Source: Bacteroidales bacterium (GTDB taxonomy: Bacteria; Bacteroidota; Bacteroidia; Bacteroidales; UBA932). Taken from it: a DNA stretch of 64,000 nt. The position numbers and the translations under genes were made by a program. The stretch covers positions 124,001 through 188,000 of the forward strand of contig JAFSBV010000019.1 of assembly GCA_017437125.1 (NCBI GenBank), in the 5' to 3' direction. This document shows, piece by piece, positions 8,541 through 25,172 of the stretch. The notes below the pieces were generated by a model. That model made no database searches and had not been told where the DNA came from. It saw only the letters and a program-made list of their open reading frames with translations. Position 1 is the stretch's first letter; each line of letters starts with the position of its first letter.

Positions 8541-8582
8541 GAAAAGGGAAAAGTCGCGCATCAGCAAGACAGATACGCGACT
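8541..8582 (-). terminator. Terminator at the end of the nine-gene SusCD operon
   Basis: Read leftward, AGTCGCG pairs with CGCGACT (7 perfect pairs, extended by three more beyond one mismatch), followed by TTTTCCCTTTT. It lies 31 bases past the stop of the small lipoprotein gene and separates the operon from the receptor gene downstream. Confidence 0.7.
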
Positions 8583-8613: not shown

Positions 8614-9096
8614 TTATTCTACCGGAATGGACTCGACTCTGACAAACTTCTGAACGAATTCAGGATTGTCCTTTGCCACCCATATCATGGATTCCCTTGT
8701 GAGATCACGGATGATATAGCGATGGGCCCAGTCACCGGAATCATGATCATAACTTCCACGGATGATTGCCCCCAGCTCGGGATCCGTCTCAATGAAATAT
8801 GATCCTGTCACGACATGGGGGACATCATTGAAACTGTCAAGATTCTGATAAAGCGTGAATGTCCTGTCATTACGGACAATCTCCATGAACACATACGTGC
8901 CGGCTGTCAAGGCAGAACCGTTCCACTCGGCAAGTTCCCATTTGCCGGATATGTTGTTCGCATTCACATCCAGATATTCCTCAACCTCCACATCCGTTTT
9001 GTCAATGCATGAAGTCGCAACCATGCTGATGACTGATATAGAAACCAGAAGATGTATCATTAACCTTTTCATATATCTCATTTTTTCATTATTCAT
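8614..9096 (-). CDS. Small lipoprotein, lipocalin-like, last gene of the SusCD operon
   Basis: A 160-residue protein with a lipoprotein signal ending in the lipobox VATSC. The mature part contains NISGKWELAEWNG followed by alternating strands ending FVQKFVRVESIPVE. The GKWxL start is typical of lipocalin-like Bacteroidetes lipoproteins of calycin fold; the match is by pattern only. ATGs at 9096, 9081 and 9072 are all possible. The first overlaps the DUF1573 gene stop by 8 bases, which favours translational coupling. It may sit on the cell surface with the SusCD machinery or act as a periplasmic carrier; function unknown. Confidence 0.65.
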   Translation of the reverse strand: MNNEKMRYMKRLMIHLLVSISVISMVATSCIDKTDVEVEEYLDVNANNISGKWELAEWNGSALTAGTYVFMEIVRNDRTFTLYQNLDSFNDVPHVVTGSYFIETDPELGAIIRGSYDHDSGDWAHRYIIRDLTRESMIWVAKDNPEFVQKFVRVESIPVE

Positions 9097-9889
9097 TTTT
9101 TGTCTGCCTTATCGAAACCTTCAATGAGGATCTGCTCGGAGGCAGGCCCAATCCTTTAAGGATTATCTTATTATCTTCCCGCACAGATCCGACCGAAGGA
9201 TCATATGATATGACAATCTCCCCTTCCTCGCCGTCTGCAACAGTTTCCGGAACTGTCCTGAATGAAAGGCATCCCGGAAGAAACGCGGTCTCGCATTCAA
9301 GCTTCATATCCCTGCCGCTCAGATTGATGAAGCGCAGCTTTTCTACAGCCTTCCTGCCTTCATCGAATGTCACTTCAGAACGTCTCAGACGTATTTTTCC
9401 CATCTGCACCGGCCATATTCCGGAAATGTCAGCTCCGTTTTCAACATCGACTGCGAGCTTCAGCACAGCTGCTGGTTCATTTCCATCACCGGAATATACG
9501 AATATCCTTCTTTCAAACTTTCCCGGATGTCCCTTAGGATCATACCTGACAGCTATCTCGGCTTCAGCATCGGGAGCGACCTCCCTGACATTAACCGATG
9601 CAGCTGCACACGAACACGATGACACAAGTCGGTTTATATATATGGTCCTTCCGCTTACATTCGTGAAACGAAAACGAAAAACCGCAGGAGCATCATCCTC
9701 ATTCATCGCTGCAACAATGCGCGTGGTCTCAAATTTCAATGACGCAGAATCAGGTGACAGACGCGGAGCCACAACACTGTCAATCCTTTCTCTCGGTATG
9801 ATCTTTATCTGCGCAAGGGCAGAAGCATGTAGCAAGAGAGAGAGGAGAAGACACGATATGAGGCTGAACCTGCTCATTATCAGAGCCAT
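9089..9889 (-). CDS. DUF1573 domain exported protein
   Basis: A 266-residue protein with a signal peptide (SRFSLISCLLLSLLLHASALAQ). The region from about residue 50 to 150 is DUF1573-like: FRFRFTNVSGRTIYINRLVSSCSCAAASV followed by AEIAVRYDPKGHPGKFERRIFVYSG. This is the Ig-like ASPM/SPD-2/Hydin type fold, with the characteristic SCSC pair. A second, degenerate Ig-like unit follows (175-260, again ending in ISYDPS). Such proteins are common and uncharacterised in Bacteroidetes and probably act in the periplasm. ATG 9889 overlaps the protease gene by 10 bases; ATG 9877 is an alternative. Confidence 0.8.
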   Translation of the reverse strand: MALIMSRFSLISCLLLSLLLHASALAQIKIIPRERIDSVVAPRLSPDSASLKFETTRIVAAMNEDDAPAVFRFRFTNVSGRTIYINRLVSSCSCAAASVNVREVAPDAEAEIAVRYDPKGHPGKFERRIFVYSGDGNEPAAVLKLAVDVENGADISGIWPVQMGKIRLRRSEVTFDEGRKAVEKLRFINLSGRDMKLECETAFLPGCLSFRTVPETVADGEEGEIVISYDPSVGSVREDNKIILKGLGLPPSRSSLKVSIRQTKNE

Positions 9890-11907
9890 CCGTTACCACC
9901 GGCTGATTCGCGGACAGTGATCACGAACTCATCCTTACGGTTTCCGGTCACTGCAGCCTTTGTCTGTCCGGCCTTCAGTCCCTTTAAAATCATCTTTCCG
10001 TCAACGATTTCCGCTGTAGCGATCGAGGTATCCTCAACCGTCACAGAGAAACTGTTTCCATCCATATACATGGAAGGAGAAGCAACAGTCTGACCTCCGA
10101 CAGATACATAAAGATTTGGGAATGTCATATCTGTTCCCGAACCTTCGACAGCCTTGAGCAGGGCATATGCATTGATCTGTCCGGCTCCCATTCCACCCTT
10201 GAAATCCTTGAGGTCATATGACATCATAGGTGCAGAACCTTCGAGGTCAAGTACATATTTCCTGTACTGCTTGATTCCGGTCATATAATCTTCAATCGGA
10301 GTAGCTGTATCGTATATGAGCGCCTTGAATTCGTCAGCCTTGAAATGCTTCCTCAGCTTGGCCGCATATGAAAGACCGAGAGCCACAACTCCCGACACAT
10401 GAGGACAGGCCATCGATGTTCCCTCCATATATCCGTATCCACTTTCGCTCAGATGGAGCGGAAGTGTTGACAAGATACAGCCGATATCTCCCACAGCATG
10501 TTCTTCATCAACATAATCCCAATAGTAATCCTGATCTCCTCCCGGTGCAGAAATCGTCGTACCGGGACCGTAGTTGGTATAGACCGCAGGAGTGAAATCT
10601 CCGGCAGTCGCAGCTACGGCCACGAAATCAGGATAAGCTCCAGGATAGCTGGCAGCCGGTGCTGATTCATTGCCGCCGGCAAATACTACGATACCTCCGT
10701 CAATGACTCCGTCAGGAGAGCCTGCATTATGAACAAAATAGTCAAGGGCCTTCTTCTCAAGGACATTGTATGTCCCCCACTCTTCATCTGTAGAATACTG
10801 AGGTGTCCAATCGAAAGGATTCGCGGCTCCGGAAATATATCCCCAGCTGCACTGAAGAACCACAGCTCCGTTATCAGCGGCATATTTGATTGCTCTGACC
10901 TCTTCCAGAACTGTGCCGGCATATGCACCGGAGAATATCTGGCATGACATGATCTTCACACCTGGAGCCGAAGATGTTCCACCTGCTATCGAGCTGATTC
11001 CCAGACCGTTATCATTCACAGCCGCTATAACGCCTGCGACATGAGTACCATGTCCCGAATCATATCTCGTATCAACAGATATGACGCCATTGCCTTTGAC
11101 AAAGTTGTAACCGTGGATATCACCGGCATAACCGTTACCGTCATTGTCTTCGTGAGATTTCCATATCTCATCTTCATTCACCCACATGCTTGCCTTGAGA
11201 TCAGGATGCGATATATCCACACCTTCATCAAGGACTGCAACTATGATGGAAGGGTCTCCTGTTGTAAGTTCCCACGCCTTCTCAACATTTACATCAGCAC
11301 CTTTGATGAACTTGGTCGGACGCAGATTACCTTCATTCACCAGATGCCACTGCTCCACAAGAAGCGGGTCATTGAAAGCACCTCCGGCAGCCATTGCAGC
11401 ATATTCCTGAAGTCTTTCAAGGGTAAGAGGATTAGGCTTGTCATCAGAAGCTCTCTTGAGTATGCGGTTATATTCCACACGGCTCACTTCACCGAGTCTC
11501 GAGAGGTCTGCAGCGACCTTTTCTACCGAATGCTCATCACTGAAACGAACAATATACCATAGATGAAGTCCCTCCTTGCGGGCTTTTTCTTCAGAACGAA
11601 GATCAACAGGAAAAACTCTCTCTATATGATATCCGTCAACAAGGTCGAGAATCTCATCGACACTTAGGACACCGGAACGGGACATCGGACAGTCAGCACT
11701 GCTTCTTGTCACTCCAGCCTTGTCAAGAACATCGCTTACATGCTCGTCAAAGCGGACAAGAAGCTGTCCCTGGAGGACATCTTCTGACAGATGCGGCAGC
11801 CTGACCTCATCTGAAGGGACATCAGTTCCCGGACCAATTACCGAACATGATGTCAACCCGGCAATCAGGACTGACGCAAGACAATATATCGTTTTTCTAA
11901 TATTCAT
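9880..11907 (-). CDS. Lipid-anchored subtilisin-like (S8) serine protease
   Basis: A 675-residue S8 peptidase with a lipoprotein signal (LIAGLTSC), so membrane-anchored and probably surface-facing. The prodomain region (about 45-180) precedes the catalytic domain, whose triad is complete: Asp near 226 (AVLDEGVDISHPD), His near 286 (SGHGTHVAGV), oxyanion Asn near 412 (FAGGNES) and Ser near 495 (EGTSMACPHVSG). A C-terminal Big-2-like module (about 600-665, with ITVRESAGG) follows. The start codon overlaps the preceding stop by one base (TAATG), indicating coupled translation with the BACON-LRR gene. In this operon it is the only hydrolase and the likely producer of peptides for SusCD import (inference). 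Confidence 0.93.
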   Translation of the reverse strand: MNIRKTIYCLASVLIAGLTSCSVIGPGTDVPSDEVRLPHLSEDVLQGQLLVRFDEHVSDVLDKAGVTRSSADCPMSRSGVLSVDEILDLVDGYHIERVFPVDLRSEEKARKEGLHLWYIVRFSDEHSVEKVAADLSRLGEVSRVEYNRILKRASDDKPNPLTLERLQEYAAMAAGGAFNDPLLVEQWHLVNEGNLRPTKFIKGADVNVEKAWELTTGDPSIIVAVLDEGVDISHPDLKASMWVNEDEIWKSHEDNDGNGYAGDIHGYNFVKGNGVISVDTRYDSGHGTHVAGVIAAVNDNGLGISSIAGGTSSAPGVKIMSCQIFSGAYAGTVLEEVRAIKYAADNGAVVLQCSWGYISGAANPFDWTPQYSTDEEWGTYNVLEKKALDYFVHNAGSPDGVIDGGIVVFAGGNESAPAASYPGAYPDFVAVAATAGDFTPAVYTNYGPGTTISAPGGDQDYYWDYVDEEHAVGDIGCILSTLPLHLSESGYGYMEGTSMACPHVSGVVALGLSYAAKLRKHFKADEFKALIYDTATPIEDYMTGIKQYRKYVLDLEGSAPMMSYDLKDFKGGMGAGQINAYALLKAVEGSGTDMTFPNLYVSVGGQTVASPSMYMDGNSFSVTVEDTSIATAEIVDGKMILKGLKAGQTKAAVTGNRKDEFVITVRESAGGNGWL

Positions 11908-13517
11908 TACTCCTTGATATTATTCGGATTGTACTTCTTGTTCGTATAATGCTGGTAATAGTAGTCGAGGCTTACAGGTTCGTTTGTAAAGCCGGCGTTC
12001 ATTCCATCCTGAGTCTTGCCTTCCTGATTGAATACCAGAGAATAAGGATACCATATATCGAGCTTAGGATGGTAAAGAAGCCAGTCTGGAAGCTCACCTG
12101 TCAGCCTGTTGTAGTTGATTGCAAAGAACTTCGTGTCAGGAAGGACTTTAGGAAGACCGATGAGAATCTCCGGAAGAGTATCACATGCATTGACCTCTTC
12201 TGCTGTCCATTTTTCATGCTGAGCCATTGTCGGCAGCTCTCCATGCAGATAGTTCACAGACAATCTTATCGTATCAAGAGCATTCCATTTGAGGATCCTC
12301 TCCGGAAATTTATGCTCTTCAATAAGACCACCTATGTTCTCCCTGTCATCATTGCTGAGATCATATATGGTATAACGCTGGTTGGCATTCATGACAAGGG
12401 CATGGAGGTTCGGGAAATTCTCCGGCGTGAGAATGTCAGGAATACTCTGGAAATTGTTGGCACTGATATCGAGATACTCCAGATTCTTCAGGTTCTTGAA
12501 ATCAGGGTGAAGAGTGGTAAGTCCGTATGCACCTATCGTCAGTCTCTTGAGGTTCACAAGCTTGGTGATATGTTCACCTGTATCAAGGCTGCGAAGGAAT
12601 GTATTTGTATTTGCATAGAACACGATTTCCTCGGCAGCTGTAAGATACTGGACCTCGAACGGGATCTCTTCATGGGTATTGAACATGAAGAATTCGACAT
12701 ATCTCACTCGTCCCTTATCCGGACCGCTTTTCCACACATGCACATTGTTCCAATGCTCAAGTCGTTCCGAAGGATCGATCTCAACATATGAATTCAATGC
12801 ACGACTGACGGCAAGGATTGCCAAAGAGTCTCCGGCAGGAGTTCCGGCAGGAATCGGCAAGGCTGCCTTCTGAACTACCTTCAGGACATCGTGCTTTCCC
12901 ATATCCACATCAGACAATGGCTTGAACACGACATCTGCAATCCTCTCATTATCACGAGAATTCACTTTCCAGTCAAAACGTATATTCACATCACGAGGTC
13001 TTGCACCTCTATCCAATTCAAGTTCACCCTTTTCAAATGTAAGCCACTTTTCAGCGCCATCCGGAAGAATGACTTCAAAATCGACATTGGTCTTCACCTT
13101 CACATTGAAGTATCTTGAGCCATAAGCAGCAAAATCCTCTACTTCGACCTGGGTCTTTGGAAGCACTATCTGATATTCGAATCCATCCTGGACAACAGTG
13201 AAATCCCTATTCTCGTCTGTATCAAGATTATGAATCCTGACAGCTCCTGTCCTCTGGCCTACGACAAGGGATGAATCGACACTTACCTGGCAATCCACCG
13301 AGCCTCTTCCGTTGGCAGGAGAAACAGTAATCCATGGTTCCTCTGTAATCGCCACCCAGTTGCCTGAAGAGCTGATCTTTATATCGGAAATACCTCCCGC
13401 CGGACCGATATTGATGTTGTCGGTATCAACTTCAAAAGGTATGTCAGGATTCGGATTGATACATGCTGCCGTCAGAACAGCAGTCACGAATGCTGATATG
13501 ATATATCTCAATTTCAT
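11907..13517 (-). CDS. BACON-domain and leucine-rich-repeat lipoprotein
   Basis: A 536-residue lipoprotein (lipobox LTAAC). The ATG at 13517 is preferred over 13538 because a purine-rich GGGAGGGAAAG precedes it. Residues about 20-100 form a BACON-like domain (NWVAITEEPWITVSPANGRGS, then RTGAVRIHN), followed by a second related unit to about 210. From about 290 come leucine-rich repeats (LTTLHPDFKNLKNLEYLDISANNF and similar, ending near NYNRLTGELPDWLL). BACON modules are thought to mediate binding at the surface. It sits in the operon between another LRR lipoprotein and the protease, which suggests a substrate-gripping role. Shares no long identity with its LRR neighbour. Confidence 0.85.
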   Translation of the reverse strand: MKLRYIISAFVTAVLTAACINPNPDIPFEVDTDNINIGPAGGISDIKISSSGNWVAITEEPWITVSPANGRGSVDCQVSVDSSLVVGQRTGAVRIHNLDTDENRDFTVVQDGFEYQIVLPKTQVEVEDFAAYGSRYFNVKVKTNVDFEVILPDGAEKWLTFEKGELELDRGARPRDVNIRFDWKVNSRDNERIADVVFKPLSDVDMGKHDVLKVVQKAALPIPAGTPAGDSLAILAVSRALNSYVEIDPSERLEHWNNVHVWKSGPDKGRVRYVEFFMFNTHEEIPFEVQYLTAAEEIVFYANTNTFLRSLDTGEHITKLVNLKRLTIGAYGLTTLHPDFKNLKNLEYLDISANNFQSIPDILTPENFPNLHALVMNANQRYTIYDLSNDDRENIGGLIEEHKFPERILKWNALDTIRLSVNYLHGELPTMAQHEKWTAEEVNACDTLPEILIGLPKVLPDTKFFAINYNRLTGELPDWLLYHPKLDIWYPYSLVFNQEGKTQDGMNAGFTNEPVSLDYYYQHYTNKKYNPNNIKE

Positions 13518-13534
13518 AATCTTTCCCTCCCTCA

Positions 13535-16147
13535 TCATTTAAGCAGATAATCACAGTTCCTTATATCCTGAGTCTTGTCATATATAAGGTAATATACACC
13601 GGCCTGATATGCATAGCAGATGTCCGACGCATCGAAGATGATCTCAGGATTATCGCTGATATCAAGATAATAACATATTGTAGATATGGTATCCTCGATC
13701 TTTCCAAGATTGTTGGAACCGAGATACAAGCCTCTCAAACCCCTGTGCTGATATATTCCAGTCGGCCATTCAGACATACATCTTGCTCCTTCCTCGTCAC
13801 GTTGTCCTCTGAGTGCAAAGACTGTCAGATACTGGCTGTCAAGAGGCTCCCACGGGAATGAAGAGAACTGGTTGTATGACAGTTCGACACCATATAGATA
13901 TGGCAGGTTTCCCGCATGCATTTCATACGGAAGATCCTTCAGATCATTATATGAGAAATCGAAAGAGCTGAAGTTAACGGCATTTTCATAATCAAACGAT
14001 CCCTTTGGAATCTCCCTTATGTTACATCCTCTGAAATTGATGTTCAGGATTTTTGAATTCGACTTGGCCAGTTCTATAGGATAGACCGTGAATTCCGGAT
14101 TATTCGTTATCGTCAGAGTCTGTACATATACTCCCCTGAAATCATCAGGGAAACCGCCGATATGATTGTATGAGAAATCAATCGAGACAATCGCATACAT
14201 CGAGTTTGCATCGAAGATATTCGGGAACTCGGTGAATTCATTATGGGTCACAGAGAATGTCTCAGCATCTTCCATATAGCAGAATACTCCGTTCTCATCA
14301 ACAGGGAACGATGACAATCTGTTGTGGTCGAAGAATATCTGGACAGGCTTGATGTCACTCCCCCATGCCTCCTCGATGGTATGTATCTTATTATAGGAGA
14401 AGTCTATCATTCCAAGCTTCTTCATATTCTTGATCTCTGCCGGTATTACCTCGAGATTGTTCTCATTGAAATACAGGAGCTGGATCTTCTCTCTTGACGG
14501 ACCGGTAGCCAGAGCCTTGAATCCCTTAAGTACCTCTTCAGAACTCCACTGTCTGTTGTTTGCAAGGTTCAGGGAAACAAGAGAAGGCATTTCGGCAATA
14601 GCCATCGGGAATGATGTCATCTTCGAGCAGTTATAAATCTCGAGATCAGTACAAGATACAAGATTCGAAATCTCATCAGGAATGGATGTAAGTTCACCGT
14701 TAGCAATGAAGAGCTGCTCGAGTTTCGTAAGTTTTCCGATTTCCTTAGGCAGGCTCTTCAAGCCGTTATTTATCTTTCCATGAATCATGTCCTTGAGCTG
14801 TATCTTCATTCTGCCTGTACCATATTCGATTATCTCATCCTCCTTCATTGTATCATACAATGCTGTTTCAGGAATGGATATGCCATGTTCAGCCATGGCA
14901 CGGGCAATGGGCTCCGACATCTGGGTTACCGGATGAGTCATCCTTACGTACTCCATATGCCTTTCCATTCTTCTGGAAGTGCCTTTACCGTCAGATATGG
15001 TAGGATCATAACTAATCAGATTGCCATCATTATGGTTGCCGAGGTAAAGTTCAACAAGTTCGGTAAGCTGGCCTATGGCTGGTGACAGATGGCCGGAAAA
15101 GCCGAAATCACTAATATTGATATGAGCTACTCGACCGTTAGAATGTAATGTAACGCAAGGTTGCTCTCCCCAGAGATCCGGATCCTTGTTGAAGTTCCAG
15201 TTGCATCCTTCAGGAAAATTTTCTCCTATATAATACCAGTTTTCTCCGTCAAGTGACTTCCATATCTCATACAAGGCATAATAGTCCTTGATATGCTCAT
15301 CGCTTTCATGAAGGGAAACAGGTACGTCGGCATCAGTGACCTTGTTGTCCTCGATCACGAATGAGGCGTCCACGTCAGATGAAGTCTCCAGAAGCTTCCT
15401 GCCGGAATCAAATACAGAATAAGATTCAATGCTGTATTCTCCTGCCCTCAGCGTTATGAGAGAGTCGCACGACAATGAAGATGTCTGATAACCGTCTTCC
15501 ACATCGTCGTCATCTTCGAAATGTACCGAATATTCAGTAGGAAGCATCTCAAGCACAGTAGTGGTATTGGATGTCCTGACAGAAAGAGTAACATATCTGA
15601 TCTCATCAAAAGAATATTCCTTGATTGCCGCCTTTGTGGCTGGATTGTCATCAAAATCAGAGAAGTCCTTTACAAAAGAGAAGCGCACCTTGCCCCTGCC
15701 GACAACAGGAGTTACAAGGTCATGCACACAAAGGCCTCCCGCCACCACACTGAACGATGCAGCGGACGCATCAGGAGTCCCCTCTGAAACTACTTCGTCC
15801 ATCTTATCATAAAGCACATACGTAACAATCTGATAGTCACCGGAAAGCACTTTCAGCTTCTCGCTTCTGAGACCGAATTCCGCAGCCTCATCATTTGAGG
15901 CGTTCATAACCATTGTCTGAGACATCAGATTGCCTTCATACCTCAAGGTAACCTTGAGCTTTGCAACATCCTTGAGATACTCCAGCTGTCCGGCCTTTGT
16001 TCCGGGATAAGAAGCCTCCTTATACAATTTGAACTGGATATATCCATATTCGTTTTCCCTGTAATCGGGAACCGTCTCCCTTACACATCCGCACAAGACG
16101 GATATGAAAGCGATCAGCAGCAATATATTGAATCTTGATGATTTCAT
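13535..16147 (-). CDS. Large leucine-rich-repeat lipoprotein, DUF4458-like N-terminus
   Basis: An 870-residue lipoprotein (lipobox VLCGC). The N-terminal 270 residues carry two related beta-rich units (YIQFKLYKEASYPGTKAG with LRYEGNLMSQ; and YVTLSVRTSNTTTVLEML) of the kind annotated as DUF4458 in Bacteroidetes LRR proteins (recognised from memory). Residues about 300-345 (WKSLDGENWYYIGENFPEGCNW) form the usual LRR cap. LRRs then run from about 345 to the end, with consensus LxxLDFSYNxLxxLP. It is probably exposed on the surface as part of the SusCD assembly. Gap to the upstream gene is 24 bases, to the downstream gene 17. Confidence 0.85.
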   Translation of the reverse strand: MKSSRFNILLLIAFISVLCGCVRETVPDYRENEYGYIQFKLYKEASYPGTKAGQLEYLKDVAKLKVTLRYEGNLMSQTMVMNASNDEAAEFGLRSEKLKVLSGDYQIVTYVLYDKMDEVVSEGTPDASAASFSVVAGGLCVHDLVTPVVGRGKVRFSFVKDFSDFDDNPATKAAIKEYSFDEIRYVTLSVRTSNTTTVLEMLPTEYSVHFEDDDDVEDGYQTSSLSCDSLITLRAGEYSIESYSVFDSGRKLLETSSDVDASFVIEDNKVTDADVPVSLHESDEHIKDYYALYEIWKSLDGENWYYIGENFPEGCNWNFNKDPDLWGEQPCVTLHSNGRVAHINISDFGFSGHLSPAIGQLTELVELYLGNHNDGNLISYDPTISDGKGTSRRMERHMEYVRMTHPVTQMSEPIARAMAEHGISIPETALYDTMKEDEIIEYGTGRMKIQLKDMIHGKINNGLKSLPKEIGKLTKLEQLFIANGELTSIPDEISNLVSCTDLEIYNCSKMTSFPMAIAEMPSLVSLNLANNRQWSSEEVLKGFKALATGPSREKIQLLYFNENNLEVIPAEIKNMKKLGMIDFSYNKIHTIEEAWGSDIKPVQIFFDHNRLSSFPVDENGVFCYMEDAETFSVTHNEFTEFPNIFDANSMYAIVSIDFSYNHIGGFPDDFRGVYVQTLTITNNPEFTVYPIELAKSNSKILNINFRGCNIREIPKGSFDYENAVNFSSFDFSYNDLKDLPYEMHAGNLPYLYGVELSYNQFSSFPWEPLDSQYLTVFALRGQRDEEGARCMSEWPTGIYQHRGLRGLYLGSNNLGKIEDTISTICYYLDISDNPEIIFDASDICYAYQAGVYYLIYDKTQDIRNCDYLLK

Positions 16148-16171
16148 ATATGTTTATTACAATACTTTCAG

Positions 16172-18526
16172 TTAAAATGAACCTGTAAGGTCAAGAGTAC
16201 ATACGAGTACCAGAACCACATTGTTTTCAGCATCATGGAAAAGGATCTGTCCCCTTTCATAAACTGAATCCGAGCCCTCATCAAGGATCATATAGATATC
16301 CACACCTCCATCAATCAGTTCGAAATCACCGACATACTCGTCGTAATCCAGACCGTTCACAACGAAAATGTGACGTTTCGCATAAGGATTAGGATTATAC
16401 ATCACGGCATTCGAAGGAATAGAAATCCTCATAGGGAATCCCTGTGTCCTGTATGTGAGATGATATATCGGAGCACAATATTCCTTGAACGTATCAAAGA
16501 GTTCCTTGTCAGTATCTGCCGTAACCTCTTCCAGGGTAGCTCCTACCATTTCTGCATACGAGGCAGACTCACCGATGAATTCCACATTGACTTCCACATC
16601 GGCTACCTTTGCAGGGTCATAAACTGCAACAATGATGGCAAGGACAGAGCCGTCGGCATCATAGAAGACGACATATCCGAGATTCTCGGTCTCAGGAGGG
16701 GTCATTCCATTATACATATCGATGACTCCAGCTGTATTGCCGCCATCGTTAGAAGTAAAACGCAGCCAGAAAGACTCGTTGGCAGTGACATCCTCCCTTG
16801 AATTATTGAATACCTTGTATGAAGAATACGGAGTTGCAAACGTCATGAAGGCCTTGTCCCTTGCATATGGATTAGAGTATGTAAGTTCATACACGAAATC
16901 CGTCTTTCCGAACCAGCCCTGAAGTCTCGGATTATCAGAATATGTCATTGTCGCACCTGCAGAAGCCATTTCCTCTTCAGAATATGTCATGATGACATAT
17001 TCCATATCGCTTCCATACTGAACGACACTGATAGCGAATTCCTCCATATCCGGCTTCAACGCACCGTCAGACTCAAAGAAGGAGTCAGCTCCGGCTCCGA
17101 CCTTGCTGAAGAGGATATATGCCGATCTTTTCTCCCCGTCATTATCTGCCGGTCTGATGACAAGAGCCCTCTTCTGGAGTACTTCCTCGCCCTGTACATA
17201 TGCATCGATATCGACTGTGATCCAGTCCGCATTCCTGCCGGCATACTTTCCATCTATGGTTTCAACGGCATATACGGCAGCCTGAGATGTTCCTGTAAGC
17301 CATGCTGTTGCAGGCAGATCCTGAAATCCCATCGATGTCATCACCTTTCCTACCGGGTCGAACTCCAATGAAGTCAATGACATATCCAGACCATAGCCGA
17401 ACCTGTCACTGCATCCCGGAATAGTCACCTCCACTTCGTGCACTGTCCGGCCATCATAATTGAATCTGATTTCAGCTGTCACGTCTTCAAGAGGATAGTG
17501 CATAGGGTCACCCATCAGAATGAATCTGGTGATTCCGGCATTTCTTTCAGGTACATCTCCAACATACTTCACATCAAGCCACTCCGGCATCTCCAGAGCC
17601 CAGTCGCATCTTGAATCAACCAGGACAGGCATACGGTAATCGCTGCCCGGCCATACAAGTGTAAGCTTGTCAGCAGGGGATTCCGAATACAGGTACTCAC
17701 CGGAATCATCAAAAAGGAAATCACCGTTTTCCGACTGTGTCGTATAAAGCTCCACGATTCCGCAAGCCGGAATGTTGACATCAAGTTCACCGAGAGCAGT
17801 ATCTCCGGCAATGAACTTCAACGTGCCGGTTGCAGCTTCAAGCGACGCACCTGTCAGGATCACTTCTATTGTTCCGGTCGTGCTTTCCGGCAGCTGGATG
17901 TCAAGCCACTCAGGAGTCACGACCGTCCATTCGCAGTTAGATTCAACCCGAAGGGGCAATATGTATTCAGCATCAGCAGCAGACCAAAGGAAATCAGCCG
18001 GACCATCAGCGTATCCATATTCAAATCCTCCGGTTCCGTTCATCACAAAGTCCCCGTCAGCGGCTTTCGCCACATAGACATTCAATGTCCTGTTCTTTGC
18101 CGGACGCATATATCTTGCAATGACCTGCGACTTTCCACCCATTGTAAGAGTGACATCACATGAGCGGTTCATATCAAATTCCTCAGTTGCGGAAACTCCT
18201 ACAGACAGAGTCACCCTTTCAGATTCTCCATCTATAACCTTTCCGGACAACTTATCGACCTTGAACGAACCGTCATTCAGCCAGAACCACTGGAAAGTCT
18301 CGGAAGGAACTGTGACAGTCCAATCCATATTAGCATCAAAAGTAAGTGTAAGGACACTTCCAGGTTCAACATCACTCTTTTCTACCAATGTCGGGAACGA
18401 CGGCTCCACCTGTGGTACCGGTGGAACAGGCTCTTCACAAGATACCGCCATAACCGCACACACAGCAAAAGCAGCAGTCATCGAACGAAAGAAAAACTTC
18501 ATATCCATATTTTTCATAGTTTTCAT
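16172..18526 (-). CDS. Large lipoprotein with repeated BACON-like units (DUF5003-like)
   Basis: A 784-residue lipoprotein (lipobox VMAVSC, followed by EE, which resembles a Bacteroides surface-export signal). The first half contains three related units with the core pattern D-W-T-V or E-W-T-V then W-L-D: about 60-85 (ANMDWTVTVPSETFQWFWL), 190-215 (SNCEWTVVTPEWLDIQLPE) and 300-325 (SRCDWALEMPEWLDVKYV). The second half is beta-rich and less repetitive. Such proteins are labelled DUF5003 in Bacteroidetes (from memory). Several in-frame ATGs (18526, 18517, 18508, 18502) leave the start uncertain; the first follows a GGAGGG run. Likely a substrate-binding satellite of SusCD. Confidence 0.75.
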   Translation of the reverse strand: MKTMKNMDMKFFFRSMTAAFAVCAVMAVSCEEPVPPVPQVEPSFPTLVEKSDVEPGSVLTLTFDANMDWTVTVPSETFQWFWLNDGSFKVDKLSGKVIDGESERVTLSVGVSATEEFDMNRSCDVTLTMGGKSQVIARYMRPAKNRTLNVYVAKAADGDFVMNGTGGFEYGYADGPADFLWSAADAEYILPLRVESNCEWTVVTPEWLDIQLPESTTGTIEVILTGASLEAATGTLKFIAGDTALGELDVNIPACGIVELYTTQSENGDFLFDDSGEYLYSESPADKLTLVWPGSDYRMPVLVDSRCDWALEMPEWLDVKYVGDVPERNAGITRFILMGDPMHYPLEDVTAEIRFNYDGRTVHEVEVTIPGCSDRFGYGLDMSLTSLEFDPVGKVMTSMGFQDLPATAWLTGTSQAAVYAVETIDGKYAGRNADWITVDIDAYVQGEEVLQKRALVIRPADNDGEKRSAYILFSKVGAGADSFFESDGALKPDMEEFAISVVQYGSDMEYVIMTYSEEEMASAGATMTYSDNPRLQGWFGKTDFVYELTYSNPYARDKAFMTFATPYSSYKVFNNSREDVTANESFWLRFTSNDGGNTAGVIDMYNGMTPPETENLGYVVFYDADGSVLAIIVAVYDPAKVADVEVNVEFIGESASYAEMVGATLEEVTADTDKELFDTFKEYCAPIYHLTYRTQGFPMRISIPSNAVMYNPNPYAKRHIFVVNGLDYDEYVGDFELIDGGVDIYMILDEGSDSVYERGQILFHDAENNVVLVLVCTLDLTGSF

Positions 18527-18528
18527 TT

Positions 18529-19446
18529 TTACATTCCCTCCTCTTTCTTCAGGCGCTCGGCCTCTTCATCGCTTACCCACTCCATAATATTGTAGAAGTG
18601 TCCTACAGTTCCAACAGGCTCGCCAAGATCCTCCACATAGACTTCAGCCCACAGATAAAGGTAGCTGCCACATGGATAGAACACAGAATCATACAGAGAA
18701 CTGCTTGTCACGAGGATCTTGTCATCTCCATGATTGGTACCGAAGAACGATCCCTCGTCACTGGCTACCTGATCACGATCCATTGTTACAAAAGGCTTCA
18801 TAGGATCTTCCGGATGGAAAGTGATAGTCACATCATATCCGTCATTGATCCAATTGCGGCATATGATCATGTTCTCTTCAGTAGGATGCTTTTCGGTATA
18901 GATAAGACGCTGATAGTCTCCCGTAATACTGTAATTATAGAGAAACATAGATGTCAGGACGCAATAGCCGGTAAAACTGTTTATATCGAACGGACAGCTC
19001 TTCATAAGCACCGCCTTGGTCTGCTTTCCGTACAGAGGCATCTCCAATCTATCGTCCATCACTAACTGAAGCTGAAATCCAAGGGAATCCGTAGCTTCAA
19101 TATTGTCATAATATCCATGTACAAGAACATCCGCCCTGTTCTCACCTGCCTTGATCGTCACAGTATTGGACTGAAGTCTGTAATGGAGGTTCTCTATCGC
19201 ATTGCTTCCCTTATCTATGATCTCGACTCCGATGGTTCTGTCATAGTCCCTTACGACAGTCGAGACCACAGGAATGGAGAAATACTCGACATCGTTCTGA
19301 ACGGGATATATCGACATCGTATCAGCAAACATGATATATTCCGCATCGGAATAGGTCACATACCTTTCCTTGCAGGAAGTGAAGGAAAACATCAACAGGA
19401 GAACAGCTGTCGCATATTTATATAAATGATTCATGTTCATTCTCAT
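18529..19446 (-). CDS. DUF4843-type surface lipoprotein of the SusCD operon
   Basis: A 305-residue lipoprotein (lipobox FSFTSC). After the anchor comes YSDAEYIMFAD and then VEYFSIPVVSTVVRDYDRTIGVEIIDKGSNAIENLHYRL, the pattern of DUF4843: a Calx-beta-like sandwich found almost only next to SusD genes. The C-terminal half (145-290) has another beta-rich domain. The ATG at 19446 overlaps the SusD stop codon region, so the pair is translationally coupled. In related loci the gene directly after susD encodes a lipoprotein that joins the SusCD complex; the same is inferred here. Confidence 0.85.
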   Translation of the reverse strand: MRMNMNHLYKYATAVLLLMFSFTSCKERYVTYSDAEYIMFADTMSIYPVQNDVEYFSIPVVSTVVRDYDRTIGVEIIDKGSNAIENLHYRLQSNTVTIKAGENRADVLVHGYYDNIEATDSLGFQLQLVMDDRLEMPLYGKQTKAVLMKSCPFDINSFTGYCVLTSMFLYNYSITGDYQRLIYTEKHPTEENMIICRNWINDGYDVTITFHPEDPMKPFVTMDRDQVASDEGSFFGTNHGDDKILVTSSSLYDSVFYPCGSYLYLWAEVYVEDLGEPVGTVGHFYNIMEWVSDEEAERLKKEEGM

Positions 19447-20963
19447 TATCTGTTACTTTCATTCGGCTGGATCTGAGAGCCAGGAGATACTATTTCATGG
19501 TTAGGAACAGGCCATACGAAAAGCGGATTGCCAGCCTCGATCTTCAGAGAGCTTCCTTCCGACTGGGTCTGGGACTGAGGAGTACGCTCAAAGCCTTTTC
19601 CCCATCTCTTCAGGTCATGAAGACGGAATCCTTCCATATAAAGTTCTCTTACCCTTTCATCGGAGATTGTCTCAAGCCAGTTGCCGGCATTCACTGAAAC
19701 CGTACCACCGGTACTGTATCGGGTCTCACGCAGAGCCGTAAGATCAGCAGATGCCGCAGAATAATTTCCCAGTTCGCAATATGCCTCAGCACGAATGAGA
19801 TATTGCTCGGCCAGACGAAGCGGCTTAGGCATGTTCACATGGAATATCATGTTCTGTATAAGTGCTTCATTTCCATAATATTTCACGAGCAGAGGCCATG
19901 TCAGCTGATGGGCATAGCCGGTCTGAAGTTCGGCAAAATATGCATTGTATCTCATATCCGCTGCAGCATACAGAGACAGAACCCACTGAGCCGGAACATA
20001 ATCAGGATAATAATAGGTATAATCTGTCGTGAAATTGAGGAAGACCGCTCCCTGGGCTCCTCCGTATGAAGTGGCCGTATAGCCTATTCTCCAGATATTC
20101 TCGAATGACGTGTCATTTGTCCAAAGATAATCGAGATATGTCTGTGTGCTTGTCACATTGCCTCTGGCTGTTGCAAGAGCGAAGGCATCGGATTCGATAA
20201 GAACAGTCGAATGATCTATCGCAGACTTCCAGTCCTGCATATAAAGGGCTACGCGGGCATGGATGGCATGAGCTGCCGCATTCGTGAAATATGCAGCATC
20301 ATAATAGTCGTTCTCATCGTCCAGCATTTCCTCTGCCTTTACAAGGTCATTGATCACGAACTCATAAGATTCTCTGAGGGTAGCACGCTTTGCTGGCTTT
20401 TCACCGAAATATGTATCGGCAAGCACAACACCAAGCTCGGAATCAGCAGTAGCAGGATCATATGCCTTGCAAAAACATTTTATCAGTTCTGAATATGCCA
20501 ATGCCCTCGCACAATACACCTCTCCAGTAAAATAATCCAGCATCTGGATCTCAGAGTCATCAGTCATACTGTCACGGAGCCGGCCTACCTGATCGAGGTA
20601 GAAGTTACAGCGACCGATTATCCTGTACAGTGCGGCATATACAGCCTCGATTTCCGAATTGGTGGATCTGATGTCCCATAGCCAAAGCGTACCGAACTGG
20701 TTGGAATTTCCCTGAACCGCATACGCAAGATCTGCCTGAATATCAGGACATAAGGTCAGATATCCGCTATACAGGGCACTGCTCATATAAGCGGAATAGA
20801 TTCCTGTCACAGTCTGCTCCGCATCAGAAAGAGAATGCATGCCTTCCTCTTCCAGAATGAAATCACCTGGAAGCTTTTCAAGGCAGGATGTCAGACTGAA
20901 GGTAAATGATACCATCAGGAGCAGCTTTATCATTATCTTGTATATATTATTCATCTCACCCAT
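19446..20963 (-). CDS. SusD/RagB-family substrate-binding lipoprotein
   Basis: A 505-residue lipoprotein (lipobox SLTSC, then LEKLPGDFILEEEG). SusD/RagB markers are the N-terminal AEQTVTGIYSAYMS, TPR-like helices (AAAHAIHARVALYMQDWKSAIDHSTVLI at about 230-258), LAEQYLIRAEAYCELGNYSAASADL near 390 and the closing ERVRELYMEGFRLHDLKRW and FVWPVPNHEI. SusD forms the lid over SusC and captures substrate at the surface. It starts 3 bases after the susC stop. Whether it binds glycan or peptide cannot be read from sequence; the operon's protease and lack of glycosidases favour peptide. Confidence 0.95.
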   Translation of the reverse strand: MGEMNNIYKIMIKLLLMVSFTFSLTSCLEKLPGDFILEEEGMHSLSDAEQTVTGIYSAYMSSALYSGYLTLCPDIQADLAYAVQGNSNQFGTLWLWDIRSTNSEIEAVYAALYRIIGRCNFYLDQVGRLRDSMTDDSEIQMLDYFTGEVYCARALAYSELIKCFCKAYDPATADSELGVVLADTYFGEKPAKRATLRESYEFVINDLVKAEEMLDDENDYYDAAYFTNAAAHAIHARVALYMQDWKSAIDHSTVLIESDAFALATARGNVTSTQTYLDYLWTNDTSFENIWRIGYTATSYGGAQGAVFLNFTTDYTYYYPDYVPAQWVLSLYAAADMRYNAYFAELQTGYAHQLTWPLLVKYYGNEALIQNMIFHVNMPKPLRLAEQYLIRAEAYCELGNYSAASADLTALRETRYSTGGTVSVNAGNWLETISDERVRELYMEGFRLHDLKRWGKGFERTPQSQTQSEGSSLKIEAGNPLFVWPVPNHEIVSPGSQIQPNESNR

Positions 20964-20966
20964 TCT

Positions 20967-23909
20967 TTAAAACATGATATCAAGTCCGAACGTATATTGA
21001 CGCGACATAGGATACTGCGCTGCATAAATATTGCGGGTTCCTTCTGGATCCAGACCTGAGAAATTAGTGAATGTCAGGAGATTCTGACCCTGTGCATATA
21101 TCCTGAGTCCTCTTATGAAACCTGTCTTCCTGAGAAGATCCGAAGGAAGACTGTAGGAAATCATAAGATTCTTGAGGCGAAGGAATGAAGCATCTTCGAG
21201 AAGCCTGCTGTCGAACTCGGTATATTCGCCATGACGCGGAATATCCGTGACATCACCAGGTTGCTTCCAGCGGTTCAGAAGCCTGCGTGACTGGTTGTAT
21301 GTCATGAAGCGTCCGTTTGACTCGTCGAAATACCTGTCATTGTTTATCATCCATCTGTCACCTACCCAGCTGAACTGCGCGCTGAGACTGAGGCCCCTCC
21401 ATGCCAGTGCTGTTCCAAATCCTCCCTGCCAAGGAGCATGGTAGGACTTTCCGACCATTACCTTGTCCTCATCCCTGAGTTCATTAGTGATGTTTCCGTC
21501 CTTGTCATACCACAATGCGTCACCGTTGGCAGGATTGACACCTGCAAATCGGTTGATATAGAACTCTCCGACCGGATGTCCTACAACAAGTTTGGTACTT
21601 GTGTTCGATGTCTCATATTCATCAACTCCATTATACAGCTCTGTCAACCTGTTATGATTGTAACCGACATTCGCATTCACGTTCCATGAGAAATCCCTGA
21701 TCTGGAGAAGTACTGTATTGAAGTTAAGCTCCACTCCCCTGTTCACCATGGCGCCGACATTAGACCACTTGTAACCATATCCGTTGGACTGGGAGTATGC
21801 AAGCGGAACCGACATGAGCATGTCGGTAGTCTTCTTGTTGTAGAACTCCAAGTCAAGATTCAGTCTGTTCCAGAACCCGAGGTGGAAAGCAAGGTTCGTA
21901 GTCCATGTATTCTCCCATGTAAGATCCTCATTACCAGGCTGAACAGGAGCCACACCGGCATCTCCGACATAATCGGATCCTCCGCCTATGAGAGCAAGAT
22001 GCTCATAGTTAGGGATCTCGGAATTACCGGATGTTCCGCTGCTGAAAGAAACCTGGCCGAGAGTAAGCCAATCGCGCGAATCAGCCATGAAGTCCTCGTT
22101 GCGGAGGTTCCACATGAATCCCACTGCTCCGAACACTCCCCATCTGTTGTTCTTTCCGAAGCGTGACGAACCGTCTGTTCTGACCGAAACTTCCGCATAG
22201 TATCTGTCAGAGAAATTATATTCGCCTCTTCCGAAGAACGAGACTCTTGAATAATCCGAATCCGCAGTACTTGTCCACATGGTGGCTCTTGTTCCGGTGG
22301 AAATGTCGGTAAGCTTGGAATTCGTCTGTCCCTCTGTCGTTATGCTGAATGCTTCGGCATGGAAATCCTGCCATTCATGTCCGAGAAGAAGGTTGAAATC
22401 ATGAATGTCATCTATGTCGAAGCGGTAGGTAAGTGTATTCGTAAGATGAAGTCCCAATCCGTCTGAAGAGCTCCTTGCGGCAGAACCTTCTCCAAGGTTA
22501 GGTTCATAGTCTGGGAAAGACTTGCTGAAACCAGTAGTATGCGAGAAGTCAACAGCAAACTGGCTGCGGAAGACGAGATTGCGATAAAGAGTCAGGTCAG
22601 CAAAGACCGTAGATATCATCTTGTACTTCTTGTAGGCGAGAGGATTGTTCTCAAGCCATTCCAAAGGGTTCTGTCCCTGTCCTTTCCATGAGCCGTCACC
22701 TATCGAAGCCAGACTTCCGTCCTTGTTGAACGGATTCCAGTAAGGGAGCATGAAACGGGCTGCCGAAATCGGGGTCACCAGAGTATAGGCTCCTTCATCA
22801 GCCTGCATGATGTTCTGATAGTTGAACATCGTGTTCGTACCCATCTTCAGCCATTTGGCCATCTGCTGCTCGAAATTGAAGCGCATAGAATAACGCTGGA
22901 ATTCCGAACCCGGAGCAATACCCTCCTGACCGTAATATCCTCCGGAGAAATAATAGTTCGTGGTCTCAGTAGCACCGGAAACGGAAAGTTCGTGGCTCTG
23001 GAGCATGGCAGAGTCATTGAACACCGCATCCATCCAGTTCACGTCGGTCTTTGCCAGATAACCATAATCCTGACCCGAAGTAAGGCCGAGTTCCTTCTCA
23101 TATTGAATTCTCTCAGCAGTATTCATCAGATCCCAGTTTCCATGCGCCATTGCTGACCAACCCATCTGCGAACGGTAATTCACATTAGGACGATCCATGT
23201 TCCGGCCCCTCTTGGTAGTGATCACGATCACACCATTTGCAGCTCTGGCTCCATATATCGAGGTTGATGAGGCATCCTTCAGAATGGACATGCTTTCGAT
23301 ATCTGCAGGATTGATCGTGTTGAAGTCTGCAGCTGAAATCGCCACTCCGTCAAGGATGTACAGCGGAGCCGTTCCGGAATTGATGGAATTCGTACCACGG
23401 ATGGTCATTGTTGCAGACGCACTCGGCTCACCTGTGCTTGACAACACCGTGAGACCGGCGACCTGACCCTGGAGAGCCTGGTCAAATGCTGCTGTCGGGG
23501 TATTCTCAAGCTTATCGGACTTGACAGTCGATACAGAACCGGCCACTGTTCCTTTCTTCCTGACACCGTATGCGATAACCACCGCATCATCGAGATTCAA
23601 CGATTCTGTTTTCATCTCGACATTGCATGTAAAGCTCTCGACAGAAGGCACTGTCACGGTCTCATCCAGGAATCCGATACTTGAAAACACGAGTTTGGTA
23701 CCTGGGGCAACTTCAATTGTATAATCTCCGTCGATAGAAGTGATGACTCCATTGCCGGAACCATCCATGACAGCCACTCCGATCATCGGCATCTTATCAT
23801 CGGCAGATGTCACTATTCCACTGACTTTCACCAAGTTCTGCGCACGCATGAGGACACAGCCGGAAGCCATGAGGATCAGAATGAGAAACAGCCTGTTAAT
23901 ATTTTTCAT
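20967..23909 (-). CDS. SusC/RagA-family TonB-linked outer-membrane transporter
   Basis: A 980-residue SusC-type transporter: signal peptide, CarboxypepD_reg-like domain (about 30-105, VSGIVTSADDKMPMIGVAV), the SusC box VVIAYGVRKKGTVAGSVS near 110-128, a plug (to about 240, with IRGTNSINSG and PLYILDGVAI, then SIYGARAANGVIVITTKRG) and a long barrel ending YPMSRQYTFGLDIMF. It imports large nutrients across the outer membrane using TonB energy, with SusD as the lid. First gene of a nine-gene leftward operon with its own promoter. There is no adjacent anti-sigma or hybrid two-component regulator, so the control is not the usual PUL type. Confidence 0.97.
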   Translation of the reverse strand: MKNINRLFLILILMASGCVLMRAQNLVKVSGIVTSADDKMPMIGVAVMDGSGNGVITSIDGDYTIEVAPGTKLVFSSIGFLDETVTVPSVESFTCNVEMKTESLNLDDAVVIAYGVRKKGTVAGSVSTVKSDKLENTPTAAFDQALQGQVAGLTVLSSTGEPSASATMTIRGTNSINSGTAPLYILDGVAISAADFNTINPADIESMSILKDASSTSIYGARAANGVIVITTKRGRNMDRPNVNYRSQMGWSAMAHGNWDLMNTAERIQYEKELGLTSGQDYGYLAKTDVNWMDAVFNDSAMLQSHELSVSGATETTNYYFSGGYYGQEGIAPGSEFQRYSMRFNFEQQMAKWLKMGTNTMFNYQNIMQADEGAYTLVTPISAARFMLPYWNPFNKDGSLASIGDGSWKGQGQNPLEWLENNPLAYKKYKMISTVFADLTLYRNLVFRSQFAVDFSHTTGFSKSFPDYEPNLGEGSAARSSSDGLGLHLTNTLTYRFDIDDIHDFNLLLGHEWQDFHAEAFSITTEGQTNSKLTDISTGTRATMWTSTADSDYSRVSFFGRGEYNFSDRYYAEVSVRTDGSSRFGKNNRWGVFGAVGFMWNLRNEDFMADSRDWLTLGQVSFSSGTSGNSEIPNYEHLALIGGGSDYVGDAGVAPVQPGNEDLTWENTWTTNLAFHLGFWNRLNLDLEFYNKKTTDMLMSVPLAYSQSNGYGYKWSNVGAMVNRGVELNFNTVLLQIRDFSWNVNANVGYNHNRLTELYNGVDEYETSNTSTKLVVGHPVGEFYINRFAGVNPANGDALWYDKDGNITNELRDEDKVMVGKSYHAPWQGGFGTALAWRGLSLSAQFSWVGDRWMINNDRYFDESNGRFMTYNQSRRLLNRWKQPGDVTDIPRHGEYTEFDSRLLEDASFLRLKNLMISYSLPSDLLRKTGFIRGLRIYAQGQNLLTFTNFSGLDPEGTRNIYAAQYPMSRQYTFGLDIMF

Positions 23910-23941: not shown

Positions 23942-23971
23942 CAAATATACTGATAATTTTGCACACTGCAA
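23942..23971 (-). promoter_or_regulatory. Promoter of the SusCD operon
   Basis: Read leftward: TTG at 23971-23969, 19 bases, then TATATTTG at 23949-23942, a full -7 match. It sits 32 bases before the susC ATG. ACTGAT motifs overlap and flank it (see the repeat entry). Confidence 0.7.
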
Positions 23972-24026: not shown

Positions 24027-25127
24027 CTACATCAGTTCGTATTCAGTGATATTCTTAATACCCGGAATCCCGTAATACGATTCGACGATATCGCCCTTGA
24101 TACACACCTTCCGACCGAGAAGCTCCGGATTATCCACAAGATTAAGTGCATTGCGGATCTCTCCTGACGACAGCTGGACCGACAGGCAAGCCTCTTTGTC
24201 GTCAGTGGAAGAACGGGGACCGAGAAGCAGATTTGTCCTTGATTCAAAAGGCTTATCAAACGAAGCAGAGGAAGAGGAAAGATCCCCTCCGACTATATGG
24301 CCGCACACCCAGACATCTTCTTCCCCGACACATTTCAACGCTTCGGAAACAGTCAGGGCATCATATGTGACATTACCCTTTCCGGGTTCGCCTCCTATCA
24401 CATATTCATCTGATTTCCAAACCCTTGCAGTGTCAAGCTGCAATATGATCGATTTACCGCCATCTGCATTTCCTGAACCGTTGCCGCTGGCCACCCCGAT
24501 CTTCAGTTCAAGGATCTCGCGTGCCTTGAGTTCTCTTGTCATAAGCAGCTGGTCAGTCTTGCCCTCATTGAGTATCAGCGACACGTCTCCCGGCTTGAAA
24601 TATGCGATGCGCCTTTCGGAATAGCCGTACACCAGACGTCCGAACGAGGATTTGAGTAAAAGCACACCTTCCGGATATGCATCAAGAAAACGAGGATCGA
24701 TCGAAAGTCTGATTCCTGAATTGATCTGACTACATACCAGTTTGAGATCCAGAGTCTTGCCGGAAGGAATCATCACACACTGCTCATCCCCAAACTGAGG
24801 TGCCGAAAAGGCGGGTTTGCTGAATTCCTCCGAGATGACTGTAACCGTGTAGCTTCCAGGATTCAATGAAAACGATTCAGGCGAATCGCCATAAGTTCCA
24901 TTATAAACGATCTTTCCTTTGGAATCCCTGACCGTCAAAAGGAAATCACTCGTGTCAGGGATCTCCAGTCCGGATCGTGTAAGAGATTCCTGTTCACTGG
25001 CAAATGACACCCTGAGTTCCCCATCAGGAACCAGGGAAGCAAGTCCCAGCATTTCACATGACTGCATTGTAATCAAGGCAATAGAAACGGCCGTCAAAAG
25101 AACGAGCCTGAAATCTGACTTCTTCAT
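24027..25127 (-). CDS. DUF4493/DUF6359-like lipoprotein upstream of the SusCD operon
   Basis: A 366-residue lipoprotein (lipobox ITMQSC). The ATG at 25127 is chosen because GAGGAG lies 7 bases upstream; 25133 and 25142 are alternatives. Residues about 20-230 look like DUF4493 (DTSDFLLTVRDSKGKIVYNGTY, then SFSLNPGSYTVTV). The C-terminal part (about 255-366) is an OB-fold of DUF6359 kind (YDALTVSEALKCVG, VWVCGHIVGGDLS, then VCIKGDIVESYYGIPGIKNI). Function unknown; probably surface-exposed. It is 117 bases upstream of susC on the same strand, so it may be co-transcribed with the operon from its own leader. Confidence 0.75.
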   Translation of the reverse strand: MKKSDFRLVLLTAVSIALITMQSCEMLGLASLVPDGELRVSFASEQESLTRSGLEIPDTSDFLLTVRDSKGKIVYNGTYGDSPESFSLNPGSYTVTVISEEFSKPAFSAPQFGDEQCVMIPSGKTLDLKLVCSQINSGIRLSIDPRFLDAYPEGVLLLKSSFGRLVYGYSERRIAYFKPGDVSLILNEGKTDQLLMTRELKAREILELKIGVASGNGSGNADGGKSIILQLDTARVWKSDEYVIGGEPGKGNVTYDALTVSEALKCVGEEDVWVCGHIVGGDLSSSSASFDKPFESRTNLLLGPRSSTDDKEACLSVQLSSGEIRNALNLVDNPELLGRKVCIKGDIVESYYGIPGIKNITEYELM

Positions 25128-25172
25128 AATCATTCTCCTCATTGTTTCATGTCCGCACCATTACGGACGTAG

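Follow-up and report, generated by a model that had tools for sequence, protein, structure and literature searches.

Protein feeding by gut Bacteroidales is little worked out compared with their use of glycans. RagAB of Porphyromonas gingivalis is an oligopeptide importer encoded as a two-gene unit, and peptide has reportedly been seen in structures of the SusCD complex BT2261-2264 of Bacteroides thetaiotaomicron. One study describes RagAB as implicated in protein uptake (PMC11817032). Do relatives of such importers come with a protease of their own, and with something to restrain it? We describe a cassette of nine leftward genes (positions 8614..23909, minus strand) in a 64,000-nt stretch of DNA from a Bacteroidales bacterium, referred to as the window. 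The cassette encodes a SusC-like transporter and a SusD-like lid, a DUF4984 lipoprotein, a variable lipoprotein (the fourth gene), two leucine-rich-repeat (LRR) lipoproteins, LRR1 and LRR2, an S8 subtilase, a DUF1573 protein and a small lipoprotein.

On a slim balance of probability we favor the explanation that this is a protein-scavenging cassette built around a RagAB-like SusCD pair. The LRR lipoproteins, if surface-exposed as predicted, would bind protein and hold it at the cell surface; the S8 subtilase, its triad intact, would cut the captured protein into what are presumably peptides; SusCD would import these; and the small lipocalin-fold lipoprotein would act as a brake, inhibiting the protease so that the cell itself is spared damage. 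Each component belongs to a known kind; what is new is how they are combined and the rule by which protease and small lipoprotein are paired, and a search of open-licence literature found no paper describing this operon.

Parts and layout of the nine-gene cassette

Adjacent genes for a SusC/RagA-type TonB-dependent transporter and a SusD/RagB-type lipoprotein mark a SusCD import operon of the RagAB type, and the two genes stand side by side here. Among solved relatives of the transporter RagA scores highest (577 bits), with the next SusC at 370 and BT_2264 at 124 bits; 3kez, 3mcx and RagB are the solved SusD proteins nearest by profile. The protease contains the Asp-His-Ser triad and the oxyanion Asn of an active S8 subtilase. 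Searches with Pfam and NCBIfam profiles detected no glycosidase, lyase, sulfatase or regulator among the nine genes, as an earlier note on this DNA had claimed, and the locus therefore lacks the glycan-active enzyme, at least one of which stands beside SusCD in a polysaccharide utilization locus. LRR1 has a solved homolog, 4ecn, aligned over residues 31-868. Profiles of the fourth-gene and DUF4984 families gave no useful match among solved sequences.

Relatives were collected by searching with LRR1. We kept the best 80 of 204 loci, which with the window make 81 LRR1-anchored loci; this choice of the best leaves distant relatives under-represented. Their record titles read Bacteroidales bacterium, Alistipes, Rikenellaceae or Tidjanibacter, and most come from herbivore guts. 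Each gene's tally omits loci too short to contain that gene, and all stop-to-stop frames were counted, since longest-open-reading-frame calls hid some genes under antisense frames. Among 75 aligned S8 proteases, D227 is kept in 74 and H286, N413 and S498 in 72; the remainder are gaps, with zero substitutions, and the full triad read earlier from the window is thus shared by its relatives.

Gaps between the nine genes do not exceed 24 bases and five of the eight junctions overlap, which bears out the tight spacing noted earlier. From this spacing and the promoter, the nine genes likely form one operon. The pattern TTG-N17-22-TANNTTTG, which follows the Bacteroidetes-type promoter consensus, occurs in the 250 bases 5' of susC in 52 of 69 loci, where base shuffles would yield 1.3, and before each other cassette gene in 0-1 loci; the claim of one clear promoter is upheld. 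The terminator placed at the operon's end stands as a stem and T tract read by eye, and the terminator scan does not list it. Directly before the promoter lies a DUF4493/DUF6359 lipoprotein gene (window 24027-25142, minus strand).

Seven of the nine proteins, all but SusC and DUF1573, begin with a lipobox when their sequences are read, the number given in the earlier note. A loose lipobox pattern is matched by the relatives of SusD (72/72), DUF4984 (73/74), the fourth gene (75/75), LRR1 (79/80), LRR2 (81/81), S8 (73/75) and the small protein (67/67). It also matches 35 of 69 DUF1573 proteins and 14 of 68 SusC proteins, and lipidation of DUF1573 is ambiguous. Profile matches agree with the former labels of the two LRR proteins (DUF4458-like and BACON-LRR, BACON just below cut-off), of S8 and of DUF1573. 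The label DUF5003-like for the 784-residue protein is unsupported, as no DUF5003 match to it appears at E values up to 0.01, and the third lipoprotein matches DUF4984, with DUF4843, its earlier label, appearing below cut-off only.

Table 1. Features of the cassette, in order of transcription (aa, amino acids)
Feature	Positions	Strand	Remarks
Promoter pattern TTG-N19-TATATTTG, Bacteroidetes-type	23942..23971	-	before susC, 62 to 33 bases ahead of its start
susC/ragA-like TonB-dependent transporter, 980 aa	20967..23909	-	TIGR04056, 777 bits; best solved relative RagA
susD/ragB-like lipoprotein lid, 505 aa	19446..20963	-	PF07980, PF14322; profile-nearest 3kez, 3mcx, RagB
DUF4984 lipoprotein, 305 aa	18529..19446	-	DUF4984, 146 bits; Calx-beta/DUF1735-like N-domain
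Variable BACON-like lipoprotein, 784 aa (fourth gene)	16172..18526	-	BACON match below cut-off only
LRR1, DUF4458 leucine-rich-repeat lipoprotein, 870 aa	13535..16147	-	PF14660, PF18805; 4ecn
LRR2, BACON-LRR lipoprotein, 543 aa	11907..13538	-	PF12799 passes cut-off; BACON narrowly misses it
S8 subtilase lipoprotein with N-terminal S8_N domain, 675 aa	9880..11907	-	PF00082, PF16361; D227, H286, N413, S498
DUF1573 protein, 266 aa	9089..9889	-	PF07610; read as ordinary signal peptide
Small lipocalin-fold lipoprotein, 160 aa, predicted S8 inhibitor	8614..9096	-	no Pfam/NCBIfam family; model pLDDT 93
Terminator-like stem and T tract	8553..8581	-	read by eye; absent from the terminator scan's list

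Inheritance of the cassette and loci without the protease

Counting the window, 59 of 60 complete loci keep the nine genes in order on one strand; in the exception, L194, the small gene comes straight after S8 and DUF1573 comes last. In the all-frame search every one of the nine genes turns up in all loci whose contig reaches far enough, with counts of 66/66 for SusC, 68/68 for S8, 67/67 for DUF1573 and 66/66 for the small gene. In the window's genus, 35 of 151 genomes carry LRR1 and 32 carry S8 orthologs, with both in 31, and LRR1 lies within 8 kilobases (kb) on the same contig for 28 of the 32 S8 orthologs. The four genomes with LRR1 alone comprise one true variant (G272), one whose LRR1 contig also carries a piece of S8 (G022) and two in which LRR1 is near the contig start (G321, G326); in the single genome with S8 alone (G250), S8 is likewise near the contig start. 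The cassette appears to come and go as a whole.

A second family of the order has LRR1 in 11 of 151 genomes. The run from SusC to the small gene is complete in eight of these 11 loci, in four of which the fast-evolving fourth gene was recognized by position and length only. The contig of L237 is cut, yet S8, DUF1573 and the small gene are present; L239 shows none of these three in the 2.1 kb from LRR2 to the contig start; and L244, with a third LRR gene, lacks both S8 and the small gene. In an even draw across the order, LRR1 was found in 7 of 393 genomes, and the cassette is therefore rare outside these groups. Next to its cassette, one locus (L197, G300:C50) has a partial tandem copy made up of a further S8 and LRR2 and a piece of LRR1.

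Six SusCD-LRR core loci have a third LRR gene: L076, L077, L078, L195, L196 and L244. They were found by searches other than that for the best 80 of 204 LRR1 loci, and the third LRR gene was identified by Pfam in L076 and L195 and by custom models in the other four. The fetched stretches of all six contain neither an S8 nor a small gene, the sole exception being a chance-level small match in L244 (E 0.07). The protease is thus not obligatory for the LRR-SusCD core, and the survey proposed in the earlier note, of S8 and LRR genes with SusCD, yields strong co-inheritance with these six loci as departures. DUF1573 is retained in the variants of the window's genus, L195 and L196, is on the opposite strand in L244, and was not detected in the fetched stretches of L076-L078. 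As it stays in L195 and L196 without S8, DUF1573 was rejected as a partner of the protease and seems tied to the SusCD-LRR core.

Mean identity over 59 loci is 72% for SusC, 62% for SusD, 59% for DUF4984 and for S8, 58% for LRR1 and 54% for LRR2. Values are lower for the small protein (45%), DUF1573 (33%) and the 784-residue protein (29%), the last of which evolves fastest of the nine. Conserved SusCD beside a fast-changing lipoprotein would suit a fixed type of cargo under changing exposure. In a mirror-tree analysis of co-evolution beyond shared history, LRR1-LRR2 is the highest pair (partial r 0.55), with SusC-SusD at 0.39.

The protease and its small partner

Does the small lipoprotein accompany the protease elsewhere? 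Among sampled shorter S8 relatives (about 640-790 aa), a small-family lipoprotein gene follows directly in 26 of 30, and SusC/SusD lie upstream in 17. This sample excludes cassette loci, S8s below 380 bits and L101 (926 aa); its regions were hand-chosen from match lists and are non-random, with a search of 151 genomes of the window's genus as the wider check. The four without a small gene directly next are L087, L089, one of two in L203, and L212, where it is found one gene further on (E 1e-6). In the wider search, which scored at least 26 candidates per genome with limited recall, 83 of 91 small-family matches have a listed S8 gene no more than 2.2 kb upstream of them. By S8 class, the small partner accompanies 31 of 32 orthologs, 52 of 80 middle-scoring paralogs and none of the 16 long S8s with the lowest scores. 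Given the 83/91 pairing and the joint absence from the six variants, S8 and the small gene look like a portable module. We put at somewhat short of an even chance the broader proposal that this module of S8 lipoprotein and lipocalin-fold inhibitor is gained and lost by SusCD operons and makes a RagAB-type importer a self-contained protein digester, also in B. thetaiotaomicron.

The model of the small protein has a predicted local distance difference test score (pLDDT) of 93, and its first-ranked Foldseek match is Tannerella potempin E, a member of a protease-inhibitor group. G51 and W53 of a GxW motif, which we take to be a lipocalin mark, are invariant over 65 sequences. Potempin-like inhibitors combine a lipobox, here in all 67 relatives, with a lipocalin-like barrel, here in the predicted model, and a neighboring protease gene, here S8. 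From fold and pairing we predict that the small lipoprotein inhibits its S8 partner.

Several observations pull against this scheme. No Foldseek match reaches E 0.001, the best being 3.7e-3; a second aligner scores 2mhd and 4qrl, Bacteroides lipocalin-like proteins with no stated function, level with potempin E; and small-family sequence matches up to E 5 contain no potempin chain. Eight of the 91 small-family matches have no listed S8 on their contig, no small gene was detected for 28 of the 80 middle-scoring paralogs, and mirror-tree analysis, tried as proof of the S8-small pair, gives no support (partial r 0.13). Subtilase prodomains are usually cleaved off; if the S8_N domain is cleaved likewise, the mature protease would lose its lipid anchor. 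No peptide ligand is stated for the best-matching SusD structures, and the nearest of them is not RagB; the kinship with RagAB drawn in the earlier note is supported by RagA as nearest solved SusC and by RagB among the nearest SusD proteins. In its predicted fold DUF4984 is similar to auxiliary proteins that bind nutrients and to DUF1735 proteins, typical of glycan loci, although this fold is not decisive as evidence of substrate. In L083 (8423-14636) an S8-small pair directly follows GH53 and GH2 genes (Pfam), a galactan-type locus; L090 and L092 resemble it by gene lengths only, as does L089, in which no small gene was detected. Finally, potempin E is listed together with forsilysin, a metalloprotease and not an S8 enzyme (PMC7296668).

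Could the small lipoprotein bind a ligand as lipocalins do, or help S8 to fold, instead of inhibiting it? We consider this unlikely, though far from negligible: the invariant GxW residues and a fold common to many lipocalins would suit it, as would the equal scores of 2mhd and 4qrl, but the pairing is with the shorter S8 lipoproteins and with none of the 16 lowest-scoring long ones, and S8 and small gene are absent together from the six variants, which is what a dedicated partner would predict; a folding partner would fit this pattern too.

That the protease is a processing enzyme, maturing or trimming surface proteins (own lipoproteins, host or neighbor targets) without feeding the transporter, and still controlled by the small protein, appears improbable to us. 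The partners of S8-small pairs do differ widely, from SusC/SusD in 17 of 30 to the glycosidases of L083 and an M43 metallopeptidase in L200, and six cores do without S8; yet all 68 of the 81 LRR1-anchored loci that have sufficient contig carry S8, and a RagA-like transporter suits peptide import. Least probable of all is a glycan or glycoprotein locus in which SusCD imports oligosaccharide and the protease merely opens a glycoprotein coat, an explanation to which the DUF4984 model and the galactan-type enzymes of L083 lend themselves, but which sits poorly with a transporter nearest to RagA and with nine genes that, together in 60/60 complete loci, include no glycan-active enzyme. The glycosidases that the earlier note asked about in related loci are absent from the cassette itself and present beside the S8-small pair of L083.

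Protein feeding is a plausible and the best single reading of the substrate on present sequence data, and peptide import by SusCD is plausible too, with RagA as nearest solved SusC serving as a lead only. The surface machine for degrading and importing protein that the earlier note envisaged is supported in its parts and their co-inheritance, and in part only, import of peptide being a plausible step; that note had given the ninth gene no role.

A second arrangement of S8 genes was observed. In a lower-scoring S8 sample (mostly 800-960 aa), a gene of 270-330 aa comes next in 16 of 29 and a small gene in one, a cut S8. Four genes of the 270-330-aa kind were tested (L084, L101, L102, L110), and all four match NCBIfam NF033709, the PorV/PorQ family of the outer membrane. 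In L084, L098, L100-L102, L105-L107 and L110-L114 a gene of about 280-325 aa comes after a member of this longer class, several members of which lie in SusCD operons. A Prevotella intermedia set of PorV/PorQ, S8 and BACON genes is given as iron-responsive in PMC10434189. One genome, G137 (L095-L097), has eight S8_N proteases, six of them in two tandem arrays within the fetched regions, where no small partner was detected after any S8.

Comparison with described systems

Like RagAB of P. gingivalis, the cassette has a SusC/SusD pair, with RagA the best solved match of SusC and RagB among the best of SusD; unlike it, it has seven further co-inherited genes, among them those for a protease and for two LRR lipoproteins. 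BT2261-2264 shares with the cassette a SusCD pair with extra lipoproteins, and its SusC, BT_2264, is only a distant match.

The structure 4ecn, homolog of LRR1, is presumably BT_0210 of B. thetaiotaomicron. In a transcriptome table for the same species, BT0207-08 are entered as SusD and DUF4984, and the entries for BT0211-13 are BACON, S8 peptidase and DUF1573 (PMC10434189). By these table entries alone, BT0207-BT0213 holds five of the nine gene kinds in the order of the cassette. We considered iron regulation of this locus and rejected it, as the second values tabulated there (0.084-0.57 and 0.152-0.241) were taken as non-significant. In work on how an E. coli secretion protein is cleaved, a BT_0212 mutant was made and had not lost cleavage of that one substrate (PMC6282197). 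If our explanation is true, capture, cutting, import and brake lie in one conserved operon, seemingly in a genetically tractable species, and are directly testable.

SusCD operons with a TIGR04549 metallopeptidase resemble the cassette in joining an import operon to its own peptidase lipoprotein; the LRR pair is absent and other lipoproteins take part. L104 (201-12496) adds the S8-small pair to such an operon, in the order SusC, SusD, zinc metallopeptidase (TIGR04549), DUF4302, Big_2, S8 and small gene, a two-peptidase import operon, and the family of its zinc peptidase is labelled 'substrate import-associated'.

The potempins and KLIKK proteases of Tannerella forsythia likewise place small lipoproteins beside a protease, and the barrel of potempin E is like that of the small-protein model. 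According to PMC4404884, the KLIKK-linked lipoproteins share no significant similarity among themselves and their genes directly precede the protease; here the small gene is downstream, in the cassette with DUF1573 between, and cassette-type S8 proteases are lipoproteins, not secreted with a KLIKK C-terminal domain. Inhibitors of the potempin kind have been described in one oral pathogen; they may be a general accessory of surface proteases across the order.

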